Shown: piece after piece, positions 54,103 to 62,142 of the stretch | How positions within the stretch are numbered: the stretch's first letter is position 1 | Layout of the letters: every line of letters starts with the position of its first letter | Assembly: GCF_025231525.1 (NCBI RefSeq) | Contig: NZ_CP103057.1 | Span: 3,358,501 to 3,422,500 of the forward strand | Source: Sphingomonas endolithica | GTDB taxonomy: Bacteria > Pseudomonadota > Alphaproteobacteria > Sphingomonadales > Sphingomonadaceae | Direction of reading: 5' to 3' | DNA length: 64,000 bases | Made by a program: the position numbers and the translations under genes | The notes under the pieces: generated by a model | Seen by the model: only the letters and a program-made list of their open reading frames with translations | The model's database searches: none | Told to the model about the DNA's origin: nothing

Positions 54103-54178
54103 CGTCATCCCCGCGAAGGCGGGGATCCATACCCACTGCCGTCAGCGATTATGGATCCCCGCCTGCGCGGGGATGACG
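54103..54178. repeat. 76-bp inverted repeat between serC and serA
   Basis: CGTCATCCCCGCGAAGGCGGGGATCCATA at the left and its near-inverse at the right (ends at 54178). Each half is itself a hairpin. It can form a very stable structure, and could act as transcript stabiliser or terminator between the two serine genes. Confidence 0.85.
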
Positions 54179-54199
54179 GCTGTTTCGAAAGACAATATC

Positions 54200-55777
54200 A
54201 TGCCAAAAGTCCTCATCAGCGACCAGATGGATCCCAAAGCCGCGCAGATCTTCCGCGAACGCGGTGTCGAGGTCGACGAGATCACCGGCAAGACACCCGA
54301 CGAACTGATCGCGATCATCGGCGATTATGATGGCCTGGCGATCCGCTCCTCCACCAAGGTGACCAAGGCAATCCTCGCCGCCGCGACCAACCTGAAGGTC
54401 ATCGGCCGCGCAGGCATAGGGGTCGACAATGTCGATATCCCCTCCGCCTCGGCGCAGGGCGTCGTCGTAATGAACACGCCGTTCGGCAATTCGATCACTA
54501 CCGCCGAACACGCCATCGCGCTGATGTTCGCGCTCGCGCGGCAATTGCCCGAGGCGGATGCCAGCACGCAGGCCGGCAAGTGGGAGAAGAACCGCTTCAT
54601 GGGTGTCGAGCTGACGTCGAAGACGCTGGGTCTCATCGGCGCGGGCAATATCGGCTCGATCGTCGCCGATCGCGCGCTGGGCCTGAAGATGAAGGTCGTG
54701 GCGTTCGATCCGTTCCTCACCCCCGAACGCGCGGTCGAGATGGGCGTGGAGAAGGTGACGCTCGACGAGCTGCTCGCGCGCGCCGATTTCATCACGCTGC
54801 ACACGCCGCTGACCGACCAGACCCGCAACATCCTGTCGGCCGAGAACCTCGCCAAAACCAAGCCCGGCGTGCGCATCATCAACTGCGCACGCGGCGGGCT
54901 GATCGACGAGGCGGCGCTGAAGGCGGGGCTCGATTCGGGCCATATCGGCGGCGCGGCGCTCGACGTCTTCGTGACCGAACCAGCCAAGGAATCGCCGTTG
55001 TTCGGCACCCCGAACTTCGTTTCCACCCCGCATCTCGGCGCCTCGACCAACGAGGCGCAGGTCAATGTCGCGATCCAGGTCGCCGAGCAGATGGCCGACT
55101 ATCTGATGACCGGTGGCGTCACCAACGCGCTCAACGTGCCGTCGCTCTCGGCCGAGGAAGCGCCCAAGCTGAAGCCGTACATGGCGCTGGCCGAAAAGCT
55201 CGGCTCGCTCGTCGGGCAGCTGGCGCATGGCGCGTTGACGGGGATCAACATCGAGGTCGGCGGTGCGGCGGCCGCACTCAACCAGAAGCCGATCACCAGC
55301 GCGGTGCTCGCCGGCCTGATGCGCGTGCACACCGACACGGTGAACATGGTCAACGCGCCGTTCCTCGCCAAGGAACGCGGTATCGACGTCCGCGAGACGC
55401 GCCACGAGCGCGAAAGCGATTACCACACGTTGCTGCGCATCACGGTGAAGACCGATGCCGGCGACCGCTCGGTCGCGGGCACCCTGTTCGGCGATCAGGC
55501 ACCGCGCCTGGTCGAACTGTTCGGGATCAAGGTCGAGGCCGATCTTGCCGGCCACATGCTGTACGTCGTGAACGAAGACGCGCCGGGCTTCATTGGCCGG
55601 CTGGGCTCGCTGCTCGGCGAACAGGGCGTCAATATCGGCACCTTCCACCTCGGCCGCCGCTCGGCCGGCGGCGAGGCGGTGCTGCTGCTGTCGGTCGACG
55701 AGCCGGTGACGCAGGACCTGCTGGGCAAGGTGCGTTCGCTGGCTGGCGTGCGCACGGCGATGGGGTTGTCGTTCTAA
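54200..55777 (+). CDS. serA: D-3-phosphoglycerate dehydrogenase
   Basis: First committed step of serine synthesis. 525 aa from ATG 54200 (MPKVLISDQ); the 27-base open extension upstream starts inside the repeat. The Rossmann site is GLIGAGNIGSIVADRALG, the catalytic residues lie in NCARGGLIDEAAL (Arg), DVFVTEPA (Glu) and TPHLGASTNEAQ (His). The long form carries an allosteric-substrate-binding domain and a C-terminal ACT domain (VNEDAPGFIGRLGSLLGEQGVNIGTFHLGR). Feedback by serine is plausible but not shown. serA is followed by a DUF559 element and then hisZ. Confidence 0.97.
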   Translation: MPKVLISDQMDPKAAQIFRERGVEVDEITGKTPDELIAIIGDYDGLAIRSSTKVTKAILAAATNLKVIGRAGIGVDNVDIPSASAQGVVVMNTPFGNSITTAEHAIALMFALARQLPEADASTQAGKWEKNRFMGVELTSKTLGLIGAGNIGSIVADRALGLKMKVVAFDPFLTPERAVEMGVEKVTLDELLARADFITLHTPLTDQTRNILSAENLAKTKPGVRIINCARGGLIDEAALKAGLDSGHIGGAALDVFVTEPAKESPLFGTPNFVSTPHLGASTNEAQVNVAIQVAEQMADYLMTGGVTNALNVPSLSAEEAPKLKPYMALAEKLGSLVGQLAHGALTGINIEVGGAAAALNQKPITSAVLAGLMRVHTDTVNMVNAPFLAKERGIDVRETRHERESDYHTLLRITVKTDAGDRSVAGTLFGDQAPRLVELFGIKVEADLAGHMLYVVNEDAPGFIGRLGSLLGEQGVNIGTFHLGRRSAGGEAVLLLSVDEPVTQDLLGKVRSLAGVRTAMGLSF

Positions 55778-55796
55778 GGTAACCGGCGCTAATTTT

Positions 55797-56225
55797 CCTC
55801 CCTCTCCCCTCGGGGGAGAGGGTCGGGTAGAGGGGCCGTGCCCAAGAAAGACGAGCTTCAGCTACAGCGTGCCAAAGCGATGCGCAGCGAGCCGACCGGC
55901 CCCGAAGCGCGTTTATGGTATCACCTACGCGCTAAGCGGCTCGGCGGGGTCAAGTTCAGCCAGCAAGTTCTGATCGGCCGCTACACCGTCGATTTCGCCG
56001 CGCGCTCGCAAAAGCTGGTGATTGAGCTTGACGGCGACAGCCATGCCGGGAACGAGCGCTACGACGCCGCGCGCACTGCTTGGCTAGAGGCTCAAGGATT
56101 TCGCGTGCTCCGTTTTTCCAACGCCGACGTGATGGGGAACGAACCCGCGGTGCTGCAGATCATTCTCGATGCGCTCGGCACTGCCCCTCTCCCCGGCCCT
56201 CTCCCCAAAGGGGAGAGGGAGAAGG
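55797..56225 (+). mobile_element. terminal-inverted-repeat element carrying DUF559, copy 1
   Basis: Left end 55797-55836 and right end 56183-56225 are near-inverse, each with CCCTCTCCCC...GGGGAGAGGG cores and a GGGGC tail; the ends align over about 37 bases. The DUF559 gene starts two bases after the left end (GTG 55838) and ends 11 bases after the right end, overlapping the hisZ ATG. No transposase is seen, so mobility is an inference from the repeated layout. Confidence 0.7.
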
Positions 56226-56236
56226 ACGACGAATGA
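55838..56236 (+). CDS. DUF559 endonuclease-like protein (copy 1)
   Basis: 132 aa. The DUF559 domain has a PD-(D/E)xK-like core: Asp52 in YTVDF, Glu63-x-Asp65 in LVIELDGDSH, preceded by GPEARLWYHLRAKRLGGVKF and followed by FRVLRFSNADVMGN, the same order as Vsr-like repair endonucleases. Its activity is unproven. The GTG start lies two bases after the left repeat, whose AGAGGGG acts as the Shine-Dalgarno. The last 17 residues (APLPGPLPKGEREKDDE) are encoded by the right repeat and not by the domain. Its TGA overlaps the ATG of hisZ. Confidence 0.85.
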   Translation: MPKKDELQLQRAKAMRSEPTGPEARLWYHLRAKRLGGVKFSQQVLIGRYTVDFAARSQKLVIELDGDSHAGNERYDAARTAWLEAQGFRVLRFSNADVMGNEPAVLQIILDALGTAPLPGPLPKGEREKDDE

Positions 56237-57336
56237 CCGCTCTCCTCCCCCAAGGCTTTCGAGACCGCCTGCCGCCCTTCGCCGATGCCGCCGCCCGGCT
56301 GGAGGCGGCGATCCTGGGTGCGGCCTATGCGCATGGCTATGAGCGCGCCGACCCTGCGCTTGCCGAGTTCGAAGCCGGCCTTGCCGGGCGCCTGAAGGCG
56401 GCGCGCGCGCAGGATGCGGTGCGTTTCGTCGATCCGGTCAGCCAGGCGACGCTCGCCATCCGCCCGGACATGACCGCGCAGATCGGCCGCATCGCCGCGA
56501 CCCGCATGGGGCATCACCCGCGCCCGGTGCGCCTGTCTTATGCCGGCCCGATCCTCAAGCTGCGCGCCTCGCAACTGAGCCCCGAGCGCGAACGCCGGCA
56601 GATCGGCTGCGAGTTGATCGGGCTGGATACCGTCGCGGCAGCGATCGAGATCGTACAGGTCGCGGTCGAGGCCTTGGCGGCGGCTGGCGTGACCGGTCTG
56701 TCGATCGATTTCACCTTGCCCGATCTGGTCGCCACGCTGGCTGCCGGACCGTTGCCGCTCGACGACGCGCTGGTGCCGGCGGTGCGCGACCGCCTCGACG
56801 CCAAGGATGCCGGCGGCGTAGCGGAGCTTGCGCCCGCCTATCTGCCGCTGATCGAGGCGGCCGGCCCGTTCGACATGGCGCATGACCGGCTCTGCGCGCT
56901 GGACGCGGGCGGCGCACTGACCTCGCGGCTCGACGGCCTGTGGAAGATCGCCGAAAGCGTCCGCGGCCATGCGCAGCTGACGCTCGACCCGACCGAACGC
57001 CACGGCTTCGAGTATCAAAGCTGGCTCGGCTTCTCGATCTTTGCAGAGGGTGTGCGCGGCGAAATCGGGCGCGGCGGCAGCTACACGATCGTGCACGAAA
57101 GCGGCGCGGAGGAAGCCGCAATGGGCTTCTCGCTCTACGCCGACGCGATCGTTGCGGGGGGCGCAGGCACGATCGAGCGCCGGCGGTTGTTCGTGCCGCT
57201 CGGCACGGATGCTGCGGTGGCGGCGCGGATGCGGGCGGAAGGCTGGGTCACCGTCGCCGCGCTGGAAGCGGGCGATACGCCCGAGGCGCAGCTCTGCACC
57301 CACGTGCTGGCTGATGGCGCGGTGCGGAGCCTTTAA
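56233..57336 (+). CDS. hisZ: ATP phosphoribosyltransferase regulatory subunit HisZ
   Basis: 367 aa. HisZ pairs with the short form of HisG for the first step of histidine synthesis. The class II synthetase-like fold starts MTALLPQGFRDRLPPFADAAARLE; VDPVSQATLAIRPDMTAQIGRIAATRM and RRQIGCELIGLDT are diagnostic, and GEIGRGGSYTIV is the motif 3-like part. It lacks catalytic residues of HisRS, as expected. ATG 56233 overlaps the DUF559 stop; AAGGA of the repeat end provides the ribosome-binding site. It is followed convergently by a hypothetical gene, sharing TTAA. Confidence 0.93.
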   Translation: MTALLPQGFRDRLPPFADAAARLEAAILGAAYAHGYERADPALAEFEAGLAGRLKAARAQDAVRFVDPVSQATLAIRPDMTAQIGRIAATRMGHHPRPVRLSYAGPILKLRASQLSPERERRQIGCELIGLDTVAAAIEIVQVAVEALAAAGVTGLSIDFTLPDLVATLAAGPLPLDDALVPAVRDRLDAKDAGGVAELAPAYLPLIEAAGPFDMAHDRLCALDAGGALTSRLDGLWKIAESVRGHAQLTLDPTERHGFEYQSWLGFSIFAEGVRGEIGRGGSYTIVHESGAEEAAMGFSLYADAIVAGGAGTIERRRLFVPLGTDAAVAARMRAEGWVTVAALEAGDTPEAQLCTHVLADGAVRSL

Positions 57337-57976
57337 TCGGCGGGTTTTTCACTTGAGTCTTGGATGAGCGTGAGATGGCCCAGTGGTGGCCGCTCTGACA
57401 TCGCTTTAGCCAAGGCAATCAGCGATGTTGGGGAATCGATCGCGCAATAGTCCGTCAGCAGGATGTCGACCGAACGCCCCCCACGCAGCATGGATTTGGG
57501 ACAATCCCGTTGCAGCACGTCGAAACGCCGAATGATCCCGCTGCCGGGCTTGCGGCTCATAAGCAGATAGTCGCTGCCGGGTCTGACGCCGATCTGAAGC
57601 GTCCATAATTCGATCTTCGGGTCTTTGCTGAGCAGCACGAAGAAGGACGGTCTTTGATCGCTCGTATCGAGCCCGGCTTTGTCGTTTGCCGTCCCGACCA
57701 GCGCCCAGCAATGGAATGCGCCATGATTGGAAAAGCCGTACCAGAGCGGGTCTTCATCCTTACTGCTCGAGCGATATATCCAGTTCCCGAACGCTACCCG
57801 AGTACTGCAACCGATTGCGTCGCCGCCCATGGACTGCGGCCATTTATCGGCGGTTTCCTTGAACAGCGGCAGGTCTGCGTGCAGAAGGTCGTCGGCCGGC
57901 GCCGCGTCGCGATCTGATGCGTAGACCGGCGTGGCAACTGAAGGAGCAACGCGGCGATGGCGAGTCTCGGCGACAC
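57333..57976 (-). pseudogene. exported hypothetical protein with an apparent frameshift in the signal peptide
   Basis: Unknown function; the body has about 195 residues, including KWPQSMGGDAIGCSTRVAFGNW and YGFSNHGAFHCWALVG, and a Cys-rich second half (RDCPKSMLRGG, DYCAIDSP). The best start is GTG 57976, after AGAAGGAGACGTAA, encoding a signal peptide [13 protein letters not shown]. That frame does not continue into the body: the body frame begins within 57930-57950, where it reads SVATPVYA, a plausible cleavage site. One inserted base there would join both. The body frame itself is open to 58025. It is either a real frameshift or a sequencing error. Its TTA stop shares TTAA with hisZ. Confidence 0.7.
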
Positions 57977-58063
57977 TTACGTCTCCTTCTGGCGCGCCAA
58001 AGAATTGGACGATCGGGCTGCCCATGTCTACAGGAGCGCCCTTCAGGAATTCGGGAATATGCC

Positions 58064-59353
58064 TTGGCGAACGTAGCAGTGATCGGCGCCCAATGGGGTG
58101 ATGAGGGCAAGGGCAAGATCGTCGACTGGCTCGCCGAGCGCGCCGATGTCGTGGTGCGCTTCCAGGGTGGGCACAATGCCGGCCATACCCTTGTCGTGGG
58201 CGAGAAGGTCTACAAGCTCTCGCTGCTGCCGTCGGGCATCGTGCGCGGTACGCCGTCGGTGATCGGCAATGGCGTGGTGCTCGATCCGTGGCATTTGAAG
58301 GCCGAGGTCGAGAAGCTGGCCGGGCAGGGCGTGCATATCACGCCGGACACGCTGATTATCGCCGACAACTGCGCTCTGATCCTGCCGTTCCACCGCGATC
58401 TCGATTCGCTGCGCGAGGATGCGAGCGGCGCAGGCAAGATCGGCACGACGCGGCGGGGCATCGGGCCGGCTTATGAGGACAAGGTCGGCCGGCGCGCGAT
58501 CCGCGTGTGCGATCTGGCGCATCTCGACGCGCTCGACGCGCAACTCGACCGGCTGACCGCGCATCACGATGCCTTGCGTGCAGGATTCGGCGAGCCGCCG
58601 ATCGACCGCGCGCGGCTGGTTGCGGAGCTGCGCGAGATTGCGGGCTTCGTGCTGCAATTCGCCAAGCCCGTCTGGCGCGATCTCAACGCGCAGCGCGCAG
58701 CGGGCAAGCGCATCCTGTTCGAAGGTGCGCAGGGCGTGCTGCTCGATGTCGATCACGGCACCTATCCGTTCGTTACCTCGTCCAACACGATCGCCGGCAC
58801 GGCGGCGGGCGGCTCCGGCCTAGGGCCGAGCGCGGTCGGCTTCGTGCTGGGTATCACCAAAGCCTATACTACGCGGGTCGGCTCGGGGCCGTTCCCGACC
58901 GAGCTGGACGACGAGACCGGCGAGCGGCTCGGGCAGCGCGGGCATGAATTCGGTACGGTCACCGGGCGCAAGCGGCGCTGCGGCTGGTTCGATGCCGTGT
59001 TGGTGCGGCAGTCGGCGGCCGTTGGCGGGATTACCGGCATCGCGCTGACCAAGATCGACGTGCTCGACGGGTTCGAGCAGGTCAACATCTGCACCGGCTA
59101 TACGCTGGATGGAGCGGAGCTGGATTATTTCCCGGCGCATGCGGCGGATCAGGCGCGGGTTGTGCCGGTGTACGAAACCATGCCGGGGTGGCAGGAATCT
59201 ACCGCGGGGGCACGTAGCTGGGCCGATCTGCCCGGTCAGGCGATCAAATATATCCGTCGCATCGAAGAACTGATCCGTTGCCCGGTGGCGTTGGTATCGA
59301 CCAGCCCAGAGCGCGACGACACGATCCTGGTGCGGGATCCGTTCGCCGACTGA
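58064..59353 (+). CDS. purA: adenylosuccinate synthetase
   Basis: GTP-dependent first step from IMP to AMP. 429 aa from a TTG start at 58064, giving [25 protein letters not shown], the signature P-loop-like motif at the correct position; further upstream codons do not match. Then [61 protein letters not shown] and [22 protein letters not shown] (58053-58057) gives the ribosome-binding site. It follows the divergent hypothetical gene by 87 bases and ends before a strong hairpin terminator. Confidence 0.97.
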
Positions 59354-59382
59354 CAAAAAGGCCGCGACTGGCGTCGCGGCCT
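59354..59382 (-). terminator. Rho-independent terminator after purA and the Thr-rich gene
   Basis: Perfect 10-bp stem AGGCCGCGAC/GTCGCGGCCT with a TGGC loop (59359-59382). On the minus strand it is followed by TTTTTGTC, a classical terminator for the gene ending at 59390; on the plus strand it directly follows the purA stop, so it probably serves both. Confidence 0.85.
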
Positions 59383-59389
59383 GACCGTC

Positions 59390-59680
59390 TTACTTCGGTT
59401 TACGGTGCTTCTTTGATTTTTCGCCCGTTGTTGCTGCCGCATCGGTCGCGGTGTCGGGCGTCGTCGTTGTGGTCGTGCTGTCCGTCGTCGTAGTCGTCGA
59501 GGGACTTGCCGGATCGACGCCCGGATTGGCCGTGGTCGAATCCGGGATGGTCGGGCCGGTGGTCGACTGACCGGGGGTGGGCGTCGATGGCGACGTCTGG
59601 CCGGTCGTTGGCGCGGTCTGGGCCAGCGCAGCGGTCGAGAGGCCAAGTGCGGCGACGCCGATGAGAGTCTTCATATACAT
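59390..59680 (-). CDS. Thr/Pro-rich exported small protein
   Basis: 96 aa, not recognised. Signal peptide MYMKTLIGVAALGLSTAALA, then a low-complexity mature part of TTTTTDSTTTTTT and PSTPTPGQ runs, ending in a basic EKSKKHRKPK. AGGAGA precedes ATG 59680 with 6 to 7 bases; ATG 59674 is also possible. Low-complexity exported proteins of this kind are common in sphingomonads; no role is assigned. It is followed by a clear terminator. Confidence 0.75.
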   Translation of the reverse strand: MYMKTLIGVAALGLSTAALAQTAPTTGQTSPSTPTPGQSTTGPTIPDSTTANPGVDPASPSTTTTTDSTTTTTTPDTATDAAATTGEKSKKHRKPK

Positions 59681-59780
59681 TCTCGTTCTCCTGTCCTGTA
59701 TAATCAGGTCAGGGATAAGAACGCCGTCGTCCGCAAAAGGACGCTCAACCTGTCCCTTCAATCGAACGCCTTGCCTTTGT

Positions 59781-60851
59781 TCAGCCACATTGTGCCCGAT
59801 GAAGCAGCTTCTGATCGGCCAATACTAGAGCCATCATCGCCTCTACTACCGGAGCGCCGCGGATGCCGACGCACGGATCATGGCGTCCCTTGGTCATGAT
59901 CTCGGTCGCCGCTCCATCACGCGTGATCGTTTCGACCGGTGTCAGGATCGAGCTGGTCGGCTTGAACGCCACGCGGATGGTGACCGGCTGGCCGGTGGAA
60001 ATGCCCCCCGCGATCCCGCCCGCATGGTTGGCGAGGAACTCCGGCCCCCCCGCGCCACCCGGACGCATCGCATCGGCATTGTCTTCCCCGCGCAGCGCTG
60101 CTGCGGAGAAGCCGTCGCCGATCTCGACCCCTTTCACCGCATTGATGCTCATGCACGCAGCGGCCAGTTCGCTGTCCAGCTTGGCATAAAGCGGCGCGCC
60201 CCAGCCGGCGGGCACGCCGGTCGCCTCGCACGCGATCGCGGCGCCGAGCGACGAGCCGTTCTTGCGCGCGGCATCGATCATCGTCTCCCAGCGTCGCGCA
60301 GCTTCCGCGTCGGGGCAGAAGAACGGGTTCAGGTCGATCTGTTCGGCATCGAAATTGGCCGGATCGATGGCATCGCCACCAATCGCCTCGACCCATGCGC
60401 GGACGCGCACCTCGGGGATCACCAGCCGCGCCACCGCGCCCGCCGCCACCCGCGCCGCCGTCTCGCGCGCCGAGGATCGGCCTCCACCGCGATAATCGCG
60501 AAAGCCATACTTCGCGTCATAGGCAAAATCGGCATGGCCGGGGCGATAGGCATGGGCGACCTCGGAATAATCCTTTGATCGCTGGTCGACATTCTCGATC
60601 ATCAGGCTGATCGGCGTGCCCGTGCTGCGCCCCTCGAACGTGCCCGAGAGGATGCGCACCTGATCCGGCTCCTGGCGCTGCGTGGTGAAGCGCGAGGTGC
60701 CCGGGCGGCGCTTGTCGAGGAACGGCTGGATGTCGGCCTCGCCGAGCGACAGCCCCGGCGGGCATCCATCGACCACGGCGCCCAACGCAGGCCCATGGCT
60801 TTCACCCCAGGTAGTGAACCGGAAAACGCGCCCGAACGTGTTGAAGCTCAA
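59781..60851 (-). CDS. aroC: chorismate synthase
   Basis: Last step of the shikimate pathway, from EPSP to chorismate with reduced FMN. 356 aa. The TTG at 60851 gives the family N-terminus [20 protein letters not shown]; an open frame to 60866 would start inside the repeat. Other signatures are [53 protein letters not shown] and [19 protein letters not shown] overlaps the stop of the DUF559 copy 2 gene as TTGA, and GGGGAGAGGG of the element end forms its ribosome-binding site. Confidence 0.97.
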
Positions 60852-61270
60852 AATCCCTCTCCCCAATGGGGGAGAGGGAGGGGCCCGCTCGGCGCAGCCG
60901 AGTGGGAGGGTGAGGGGGCGAGTGCGGCTCGAATTACCTCCGCCACGCCGTCGACATTGCCCATCACATCGCCATTGGTAAAACGAAGCACCCTGTAGCC
61001 CTCACGTTCCAGAAATGCCGTCCGCTGGGCATCGTACAATTCGGTTTGAGCGTGCGTATCGCCATCGATCTCGATCACCAGTCGCTGGGCCTGGCAAACA
61101 AGATCTCCATAGAATGGCCCTATGCGTTGCTGACGGCGGAACTTGTGACCGTCAAGCGAGCCGCCGCGCAGGGCAGACCAGAGCTTGGCTTCGGCGAGGG
61201 TGGAGTTGCGCCGGAGTTCGCGCGCGCGGGCGATGCTACCATCGTCGACTGTGTACCGGGATCGCGTCAC
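60848..61270 (-). CDS. DUF559 endonuclease-like protein (copy 2)
   Basis: 140 aa, GTG start at 61270. It has the same DUF559 core as copy 1: [50 protein letters not shown] with Asp56, Glu67 and Asp69, [14 protein letters not shown]. Overall the two are only moderately alike, so they are not a recent duplication. The tail after residue 118 ([21 protein letters not shown]) is encoded by the right-hand repeat. The stop overlaps the aroC TTG. It lies between fabI and aroC, all on the minus strand. Confidence 0.85.
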
Positions 61271-61333
61271 CAGCCCTCACCCTTCCCACCGCTGCGCGGC
61301 GGGCCCCTTCCCTCTCCCCCGAAGGGGAGAGGG
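60855..61333 (-). mobile_element. terminal-inverted-repeat element carrying DUF559, copy 2
   Basis: End near aroC 60855-60916 and end near fabI 61274-61333 are inverses over about 60 bases, each with CCCTCTCCCC...GGGGAGAGGG cores, an AGGGGCCCG stretch and an inner hairpin ending GGGTGAGGG. It fills the space between the fabI stop (five bases away) and the aroC start (three bases away) exactly. No transposase is seen. Confidence 0.72.
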
Positions 61334-61338
61334 AGTCC

Positions 61339-62142
61339 TCAGACCAACGCGATATCCGGTGCGTCCTCGGCCTTCATGCCGATCACATTGTACCCGGCGT
61401 CGACATGATGGGTCTCGCCCGTCACGCCGCTCGCCAGGTCGCTCAGCAGGTACAGGCCGGCGCCGCCGACATCCTCGATCGTCACGTTGCGCTTGAGCGG
61501 CGAGTTGAACTCGTTCCACTTCAGGATCAGCCGGAAATCGCCGATGCCGCTGGCGGCCAGCGTCTTGATCGGCCCGGCGGAGATCGCATTTACGCGAATA
61601 TTGTCGCCGCCAAGATCGACCGACAGATATTGCACGCTGGTCTCGAGCGCTGCCTTGGCCACGCCCATCACGTTGTAATGCGGGATGACCTTCTCGGCGC
61701 CATAATAGCTGAGCGTCAGCAACGCACCGCCATTCGGCATCATCGCCGATGCACGCTTGGCCACTGCGACGAACGAATAGACCGAGATGTTCATCGTCAT
61801 CAGGAAATTGTCGAGACTGGTATCGACATAGCCGCCGCGTAGCTCGTTCTTGTCGGAAAAGCCGATCGCATGCACGACGAAGTCGATCGTCGGCCACCGC
61901 TCGGCAAGCGTCGCGAAGCACGTATCGAGATCCGCCATGTCCGAAACGTCGCACGGGATCAGGAAATCCTGTCCCAGCGATGCCGCCAGCGGCCGCACCC
62001 GCTTCTCCAGCGCCTCGCCCTGATAGCTGAACGCCAATTCCGCCCCATGTTCGGCCAGCTTCTGCGCGATCCCCCAGGCCAGCGACTTGTCGTTCGCAAG
62101 CCCCATGATGAGCCCGCGCTTGCCTTGCATCAATCCATTCAC
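61339..62142 (-). CDS. fabI: enoyl-[acyl-carrier-protein] reductase FabI
   Basis: NADH-dependent reduction of trans-2-enoyl-ACP, last step of each fatty-acid elongation cycle. 267 aa from GTG 62142, which overlaps the yihY stop (GTGA). N-terminal MQGKRGLIMGLANDKSLAWGIA carries the FabI-type nucleotide loop; the catalytic pair Tyr and Lys is in HYNVMGVAKAAL (Y-x6-K), preceded by LSYYGAEKV. C-terminal GETHHVDAGYNVIGM is typical. An ATG at 62130 is also possible. The gene is the classical target of triclosan-type inhibitors. Confidence 0.96.
   Translation of the reverse strand: MNGLMQGKRGLIMGLANDKSLAWGIAQKLAEHGAELAFSYQGEALEKRVRPLAASLGQDFLIPCDVSDMADLDTCFATLAERWPTIDFVVHAIGFSDKNELRGGYVDTSLDNFLMTMNISVYSFVAVAKRASAMMPNGGALLTLSYYGAEKVIPHYNVMGVAKAALETSVQYLSVDLGGDNIRVNAISAGPIKTLAASGIGDFRLILKWNEFNSPLKRNVTIEDVGGAGLYLLSDLASGVTGETHHVDAGYNVIGMKAEDAPDIALV

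Follow-up and report, generated by a model that had tools for sequence, protein, structure and literature searches.

A DUF559 endonuclease-like gene as the probable gene-bearing member of a REPIN-like hairpin repeat family in Sphingomonas

RIME- and BIME-type repeats, which are orphan intergenic hairpin doublets, are among the described systems most similar to the locus analyzed here. In the REPIN/RAYT system, as presented in two sources (PMC6006769, PMC8266576), inverted hairpin repeats occur in pairs in intergenic DNA, including gene-less copies; generally, one resident gene per repeat type lies near the same repeats, and repeat and enzyme co-evolve. The CGTC-type REPs, also orphan intergenic hairpin doublets, are said in PMC3733652 to have no dedicated transposase. 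On the enzyme side, EDxHD enzymes are described in a review (PMC3943268), and a Thermosynechococcus DUF559 gene is placed in the EDxHD family in PMC9403480. According to PMC12907096, VsrA of Caulobacter, a protein with a DUF559 domain, is induced by DNA damage and is active in cells from which the ScmA methylase is absent. A search of CC-licensed PMC papers, mostly at listing level, found no description of a DUF559-repeat system.

The window, i.e., the whole stretch of DNA analyzed, spans 64,000 nucleotides of Sphingomonas endolithica (assembly GCF_025231525.1, contig NZ_CP103057.1, positions 3,358,501 to 3,422,500), whose genome, labelled G000 below, is a single contig of 4.09 Mb. A sequence-only reading of this DNA had drawn attention to a DUF559 gene that stands free between serA and hisZ. 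The features of this unit, and of a second DUF559 unit nearby, are listed below in window coordinates.

54173–55777, plus strand: serA, the left neighbour, recognized by ORF content and named as in the sequence-only reading.
55800–55822, no strand: left outer palindrome CCCTCTCCCC-TCG-GGGGAGAGGG, from the sequence.
55825–55836, no strand: left inner motif GGGTAGAGGGGC (degenerate GGGAGAGGGGC), from the sequence, with the consensus taken from relatives.
55838–56236, plus strand: DUF559 (PF04480) endonuclease-like gene, an ORF of 132 aa with a GTG start and a Pfam match.
56184–56193, no strand: right inner motif CCCCTCTCCC, within the 3' end of the gene, from the sequence.
56197–56219, no strand: right outer palindrome CCCTCTCCCC-AAA-GGGGAGAGGG, within the 3' end of the gene, from the sequence.
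56233–57336, plus strand: hisZ, the right neighbour, an ORF whose start overlaps the DUF559 stop, named as in the sequence-only reading.
60848–61270, minus strand: second DUF559 gene, 140 aa, from its ORF and the DUF559 search.
60854–60886, no strand: first arm of the inverted repeat in the second unit; a small hairpin and an inner motif come next, reaching about 60916.
61302–61334, no strand: opposite arm of that repeat in the second unit, with its inner part at 61274–61286.

The 132-aa protein matched PF04480 with 125.9 bits in a Pfam search, against a curated cut-off of 20.6 (E 7.7e-37). That the gene lies between inverted repeats, as first proposed, is confirmed: two arms of 45 nt each (55798–55842 and 56177–56221) are 89% complementary, and the flank-to-flank inverted match scores 30, compared to 13 at the 99th percentile of 449 shifted controls. 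Each arm combines a perfect outer palindrome (a 10-bp stem CCCTCTCCCC, a loop, and GGGGAGAGGG) with an inner motif. The gene had been said to begin two bases after the left repeat, which is accurate for palindrome plus motif (one or two bases past) but not for the 45-nt arm, which overlaps the gene by 5 nt. It does end just past the right repeat, with the arm stopping at 56221 and the gene at 56236; its last 20 codons start in this repeat, and about 15 of them lie inside it (..TAPLPGPLPKGERE..). The described overlap between the TGA stop of DUF559 (56234–56236) and the ATG of hisZ (56233–56235) is also present. As for the idea that the right repeat provides the hisZ Shine-Dalgarno, a Shine-Dalgarno-like AGAAGG (56220–56225) abuts the right palindrome, with just its first two bases inside the arm, although AGAAG is likewise found after gene-less copies of the repeat, at least three of them (L023, L024, and L027). 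The unit takes up almost all of the 458-bp serA-hisZ gap, as the earlier reading had it, and DUF559 is the sole ORF between the ends; the transposase gene that an insertion sequence would carry is missing.

The second DUF559 unit (60848–61334), 5 kb from the first, has C-type ends with A-type outer palindromes, and from the reading of ORFs its neighbours are presumably aroC and fabI. In E. coli, ycjD, which is a DUF559 gene, is likewise annotated adjacent to fabI. The sole Rfam match in the region 55300–61800 is a weak one to whalefall-1 at one end of this unit (61273–61333; 22.1 bits, below the 37-bit gathering threshold), and whalefall-1 RNAs may themselves belong to this kind of repeat. The gap before serA (54104–54179) contains a CGTC-type doublet, cgtcatccccgcgaaggcgggg ... 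ccccgcctgcgcggggatgacg, which belongs to a different repeat family.

More copies of the ends of the serA-hisZ unit, for which the sequence-only reading suggested looking, are present in the genome; rather than flanking many unrelated genes, an outcome which that reading had considered fatal to a mobile element, they occur as gene-less doublets. The pattern CCTCTCCCCN{2,6}GGGGAGAGG is found 19 times (reversed control, 0), and the 19 palindromes resolve into 11 units, three with a DUF559 gene and eight gene-less. A doublet consists of a palindrome, TYGGGGAGAGGGGC (in some cases after an extra spacer), a core of 24–40 nt (seven measured), GCCCCTCTCCC, and a second palindrome, for a total of 91–126 bp in the six gene-less doublets measured; by eye, no constant GTAG stands beside the palindromes of the doublets read here and in relatives. 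Three doublets (L023, L025, and L026) contain one perfect palindrome alone, the partner being imperfect in L023. Long DNA hairpins are seen in three doublets, with folding z-scores of -6.9, -8.6, and -11.7; the gene unit's two ends, folded alone as DNA, give -2.4 and -1.3. Thus, inverted doublets that form hairpins and exist without a gene are found here as in REPIN/RAYT. Judged by the protein starts downstream of them, two doublets are presumably in the rpoB-rpoC and atpD-atpC gaps. The genome has six DUF559 genes, and all six are framed by inverted repeats of several flavours (scores 25–34), so that DUF559 does sit between ends of this general kind, here and at 41 of 43 genus loci. In L026 (G000 positions 1002500–1003300), an A doublet has its left palindrome interrupted by another hairpin sequence, CGATC(A/G)TGCCCCCGGCA(C/T)GATCTGAA..., and in L025 (3659100–3659900) a hairpin sequence like it stands in the left palindrome's place; both look like an element nested in an element.

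We compared the serA-hisZ site in 61 genomes of the same genus. All 61 have a hisZ homologue, with serA beside it in 55. A DUF559 gene or remnant occupies the gap in 25 of the 55; the gap lacks DUF559 and is at most 131 bp long in 22 (at most 35 bp in ten of these), and it is longer without DUF559 in the remaining eight. Empty sites, which a mobile element would leave in relatives, therefore exist. Occupancy changed at least 14 times on a SerA+HisZ tree (24 genomes, the remnant of G043 left out), and the gene has the orientation of hisZ in 23/23 copies (not counting the badly broken ones of G027 and G043), a uniformity that fits inheritance and recombination better than repeated insertion. The picture of a self-contained unit hopping into serA-hisZ is thus supported only in part: empty sites exist, but the gene has a single orientation, and no target-duplicating insertion was found at the sites compared. 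Gene and flanks also have discordant histories: G024/G058 and G034/G018 are 97–98% identical in SerA+HisZ but 53% in DUF559, and G014/G013 are 96% identical in the former and 63% in the latter. In G000, the gene shares 82% identity with the G040 copy (flanks 79%) but 63% with the copy of G053, the nearest relative in the sample (flanks 88%). Taken together, occupancy, orientation, and allele exchange indicate a copy that for the most part stays in place, is frequently lost, and is exchanged through recombination or transfer. Purifying selection is evident from dN/dS values of 0.06–0.24 in nine close DUF559 pairs, three of them with dS above 1, and residues E63, D65, G66, H69, D76, and R79 are invariant in 23/23 copies, D52 in 21/23. 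As judged by eye, other hairpins or doublets occupy the serA-hisZ gaps of G015, G030, G045, G055, G056, G057, G046, G047, and G031, and the gap is possibly a general hot spot for hairpin elements.

The number of repeats in a genome follows the presence of the gene. With the clade-A gene defined as a match of at least 100 bits, a threshold set after seeing the scores, the 27 genomes that carry it have a median of 19 palindromes (range 5–62), compared to 1 (range 0–6) in the 34 that do not (AUC 0.995, p 3e-11, 61 genomes). Subtracting the gene's own two ends leaves a median of 17 (3–60) and an AUC of 0.972; phylogenetic regression on the SerA+HisZ tree gives t=10.5 and p=4e-15 for flavour A, and the reversed pattern yields 0 palindromes in 61/61 genomes. 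The gene need not be at serA-hisZ: G021 and G026, with 35 and 14 palindromes, have no DUF559 there and carry a clade-A gene elsewhere. Two genomes counted as lacking the gene, G027 (stop codon in its copy) and G013 (truncated match), have 2 and 3 palindromes, respectively. For flavour B, the relationship is weaker (12 genomes with the gene; medians 36.5 and 0; AUC 0.86), although the B gene predicts B repeats in phylogenetic regression (t=5.0). The B correlation is less clean because the B pattern is also abundant in genomes without an above-threshold B gene; several such genomes are rich in B repeats, and G002 has a 67%-identical B-type match below the threshold. Cross-flavour effects are smaller but not nil, with uncorrected AUCs of 0.71 and 0.64 (p 0.03 and 0.05) and p-values of 0.11 and 0.09 under phylogenetic regression. 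The coupling of copy number to a cognate gene known from REPIN/RAYT is thus observed for flavour A and, less strongly, for B.

Repeat flavour, in classes set after seeing the ends, is largely associated with protein clade. A tree of 61 genus DUF559 domains requires 30 flavour changes, compared to 43.6 after shuffling (0/200 shuffles as low). In clade A (27 rows, support 97/91), 25 rows have an A-type end on one or both sides and two are unassigned, and A-type ends appear in only 1/34 rows outside it; C-type ends are not confined to a single clade. The inner motif, GGG(A/T)GAGGGG, differs by one base between two subclades of clade A: the genes' own ends have GGGAGAGGGG and GGGTGAGGGG in a ratio of 35:1 in the A subclade and 3:14 in the T subclade. 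This split was seen first on the genes' own ends and then tested on gene-less doublets, where G000, G033, and G001 gave 33 A and 0 T (22 loci), and G005 and G018 gave 3 A and 16 T (12 loci, for G018 the first seven sites listed). G034, of the T subclade, has 1 A and 5 T in three elements, and G047 and G054, without an A gene, have 7 A and 0 T in eight loci. The prediction that doublet motif matches the resident subclade was borne out in five genomes plus G034 but failed in G024, which has an A-subclade gene at serA-hisZ and yet 0 A and 8 T in six elements within 400 kb. If G024/G058 acquired their allele recently by exchange, that would account for these T-type doublets; G018 and G034, near relatives of G024, carry T-subclade alleles at serA-hisZ.

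Doublets turn over between species. The flanks of six doublets were sought in ten relatives, with 25 of 60 site-relative pairs readable. Gaps with an A doublet in G000 mostly hold other doublets (types assigned by eye), other sequence, or little elsewhere, e.g., 4 bp at atpD-atpC and 17 bp at site24 in G028; in G022, site24 seemingly has the same doublet as in G000. At one site in G024 and G034, the flanks are homologous (~94% over 4 kb) and the doublet plan is alike, whereas the cores differ. Cores are more alike within than between genomes (0.58 versus 0.45, 0/5000 permutations; 28 cores, with G018/G024/G034 as one group), a likeness carried by G018/G024/G034 (0.62), G033 (0.58), and G000 (0.49), and absent in G005 (0.39) and G001 (0.41). 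Together, core likeness and site turnover fit within-genome amplification and doublet-by-doublet replacement. No target duplication was found in the six doublet sites across ten relatives, in serC-serA of four near species, or in the syntenic stretch of G024 and G034, a test limited by the divergence of the genomes compared. The rpoB-rpoC gap (L022 and relatives), in an operon that we take to be essential, holds mostly different hairpin elements in G000 and the nine relatives read; one element is common to G012 and G028, and an unrelated longer sequence is found in G053.

An AlphaFold2 model of the DUF559 protein (mean pLDDT 81) is close to 3hrl and 3r3p, with a TM score by target of 0.89 for 3hrl, a DUF559 protein of N. 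gonorrhoeae. The closest match outside DUF559 is the EDxHD homing endonuclease I-Bth0305I (TM 0.81 by target, profile E 4.6e-4), and the predicted structure has the catalytic-domain fold of EDxHD homing endonucleases; Vsr is a poorer match (TM 0.48–0.51; 1cw0, E 0.03). The likeness to I-Bth0305I comprises fold and profile, as well as the replacement of alleles at one site with discordant gene likeness. Unlike I-Bth0305I, the 132-aa protein has no extra DNA-binding domain, no intron or intein was seen, and its gene lies between inverted repeats that also exist gene-less. With Vsr and VsrA, the protein shares a nuclease superfamily and, in the latter case, a DUF559 domain (PMC12907096), but here repeats surround the gene. 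Unlike the orphan CGTC, RIME, and BIME repeats, a gene family is proposed here for the C/T-rich flavours. The system works like REPIN/RAYT and fails that family's defining enzyme test, having a PD-(D/E)XK-type DUF559 protein in place of an HUH/Y1 enzyme; its ends also differ in being C/T-rich palindromes with an inner 10-mer.

The association extends beyond the genus into the phylum, with DUF559 present in 57/61 genus and 108/299 phylum genomes. We examined 113 best-scoring loci, 43 from the genus and 70 from the phylum, with one or two taken from most genomes and L125 left out, and found flanking inverted repeats at 83 (41/43 genus, 42/70 phylum), compared to 1/449 controls. With a wide motif set that was broadened after seeing the data, a repeat motif lies within 200 bp of 103/113 best-scoring loci and on both sides of 76/113, versus 35/448 and 3/448 shifted controls, respectively; a decoy motif was found at 0/113 loci and in 1/448 controls. 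The DUF559 copy of S. meliloti has doublets on both sides, and that of Azospirillum on the left side only. A scan with E. coli YcjD, in which 80 of 278 loci were kept and 76 were usable, gave inverted repeats at 25/76 loci versus 1/290 controls and the motif at 72/76 versus 37/290. The 28 loci whose titles are enterobacterial all stayed below an inverted-repeat score of 16; two E. coli loci were read, and both have their repeats on the downstream side of ycjD. Scores of 19–25 were obtained for some loci from metagenome assemblies with Gastranaerophilales or Melainabacteria in the title, which may be real or a binning error. A ycjD locus covering at least 80% of the query is found in 3361/5426 complete E. 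coli genomes. As a within-species empty site, the E. coli ycjD locus was rejected, since three ycjD-less loci (sapF-fabI) hold an efflux operon instead. CGTC-type repeats were likewise discarded as general DUF559 partners, with their motif near just 6/113 loci.

In our judgement, the serA-hisZ unit is probably the gene-bearing member of a REPIN-like family whose enzyme would be a DUF559 endonuclease of the PD-(D/E)XK/Vsr-like fold rather than a tyrosine transposase. The doublet anatomy alone would suit ordinary REPIN/RAYT, with a Y1 transposase moving the doublets. However, the Y1 model PF01797 has no match in 57/61 genus genomes, including G000, and matches in 4/61; G000, G018, G034, G004, G024, G058, and G060 have 19 to 62 palindromes each without it. 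Unless a diverged enzyme evades the Pfam model, a Y1 transposase is rejected for the genus sample, and we give this account hardly any credence. An insertion sequence or MITE, placed in serA-hisZ by an ordinary transposase, would account for terminal inverted repeats and for the existence of empty sites; it is very improbable given the lack of a transposase ORF in the unit, the single orientation in 23/23 copies, and the absence of a target duplication at the sites compared.

Two further explanations accept the enzyme as an endonuclease and detach it from the spread of the repeats. In one, DUF559 is a Vsr-like host mismatch-repair enzyme, as VsrA would suggest with its DUF559 domain, DNA-damage induction, and action without ScmA (PMC12907096), and the repeats have no connection with it, being terminators or mRNA elements; doublets inside operons would indeed be transcribed, and Vsr is among the fold matches (1cw0). 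This leaves the repeats at 103/113 best-scoring loci, the match of flavour to clade, and the dosage unexplained, and I-Bth0305I matches the fold better, which makes a repair role as the whole explanation decidedly unlikely, even if the Vsr-like role and the repeat role are not mutually exclusive. In the other, the doublets are spread by other machinery and DUF559 is a passenger homing gene that uses the repeats as target and finds a safe intergenic home there. Different doublet families occupy the same gaps, which marks these gaps as general hot spots, and CGTC-type doublets occur in these genomes with no obvious DUF559 link (6/113 loci), in agreement with REPs said to lack a dedicated transposase (PMC3733652). 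A passenger, however, is not expected to set copy number, flavour, or motif base, and A-doublet number tracks the clade-A gene, flavour largely tracks protein clade, and the inner-motif base tracks the subclade with the exception of G024; we consider a passenger unlikely, though it deserves more weight than a repair enzyme.

The partnership of an endonuclease with repeats, likened to REP-associated transposases in the sequence-only reading, draws support from the empty sites, the extra copies of the ends, and the framing of 6/6 DUF559 genes. The association, dosage, clade specificity, turnover, selection, and fold obtained by comparison suggest that the DUF559 enzyme may help hairpin repeats to spread. 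In such a reaction, the enzyme would recognize the ends, mainly via the inner motif, either as hairpins or as duplex ends, and nick or cut there; the outer palindrome may serve structure and the inner motif specificity. Recombination repair would then copy doublets into other intergenic sites, or swap one doublet or DUF559 allele for another in a homing-like manner. Pure homing fails to explain entry into doublet-free gaps, for which a second, rarer route, i.e., microhomology repair, would be needed. The serA-hisZ copy itself would be mostly resident, being inherited, lost, or swapped by recombination, and the right end of the unit would leave hisZ its own start signals.

On a broader scale, and with slightly less than even confidence, we propose that DUF559 proteins, E. 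coli YcjD included, could be the missing enzymes for a large class of intergenic C/T-rich palindromes throughout Pseudomonadota and perhaps outside it. They would define a new class of mobile element, in which a homing-type nuclease of ~120–140 aa, without transposase activity, would act in trans via a short inner motif to spread and replace hairpin doublets by cut-and-repair. The analysis gives DUF559, a common family of 'unknown' function present in 108/299 phylum genomes, a likely function and a partner, and it offers an enzyme for a class of orphan palindromic repeats. If true, partnerships between repeats and nucleases have also evolved from an unrelated enzyme class, a homing-type nuclease can sustain mobile DNA without intron, intein, or transposase, and the question of how REPIN-like repeats spread and persist would become testable in E. 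coli K-12, through ycjD, and in Sphingomonas.
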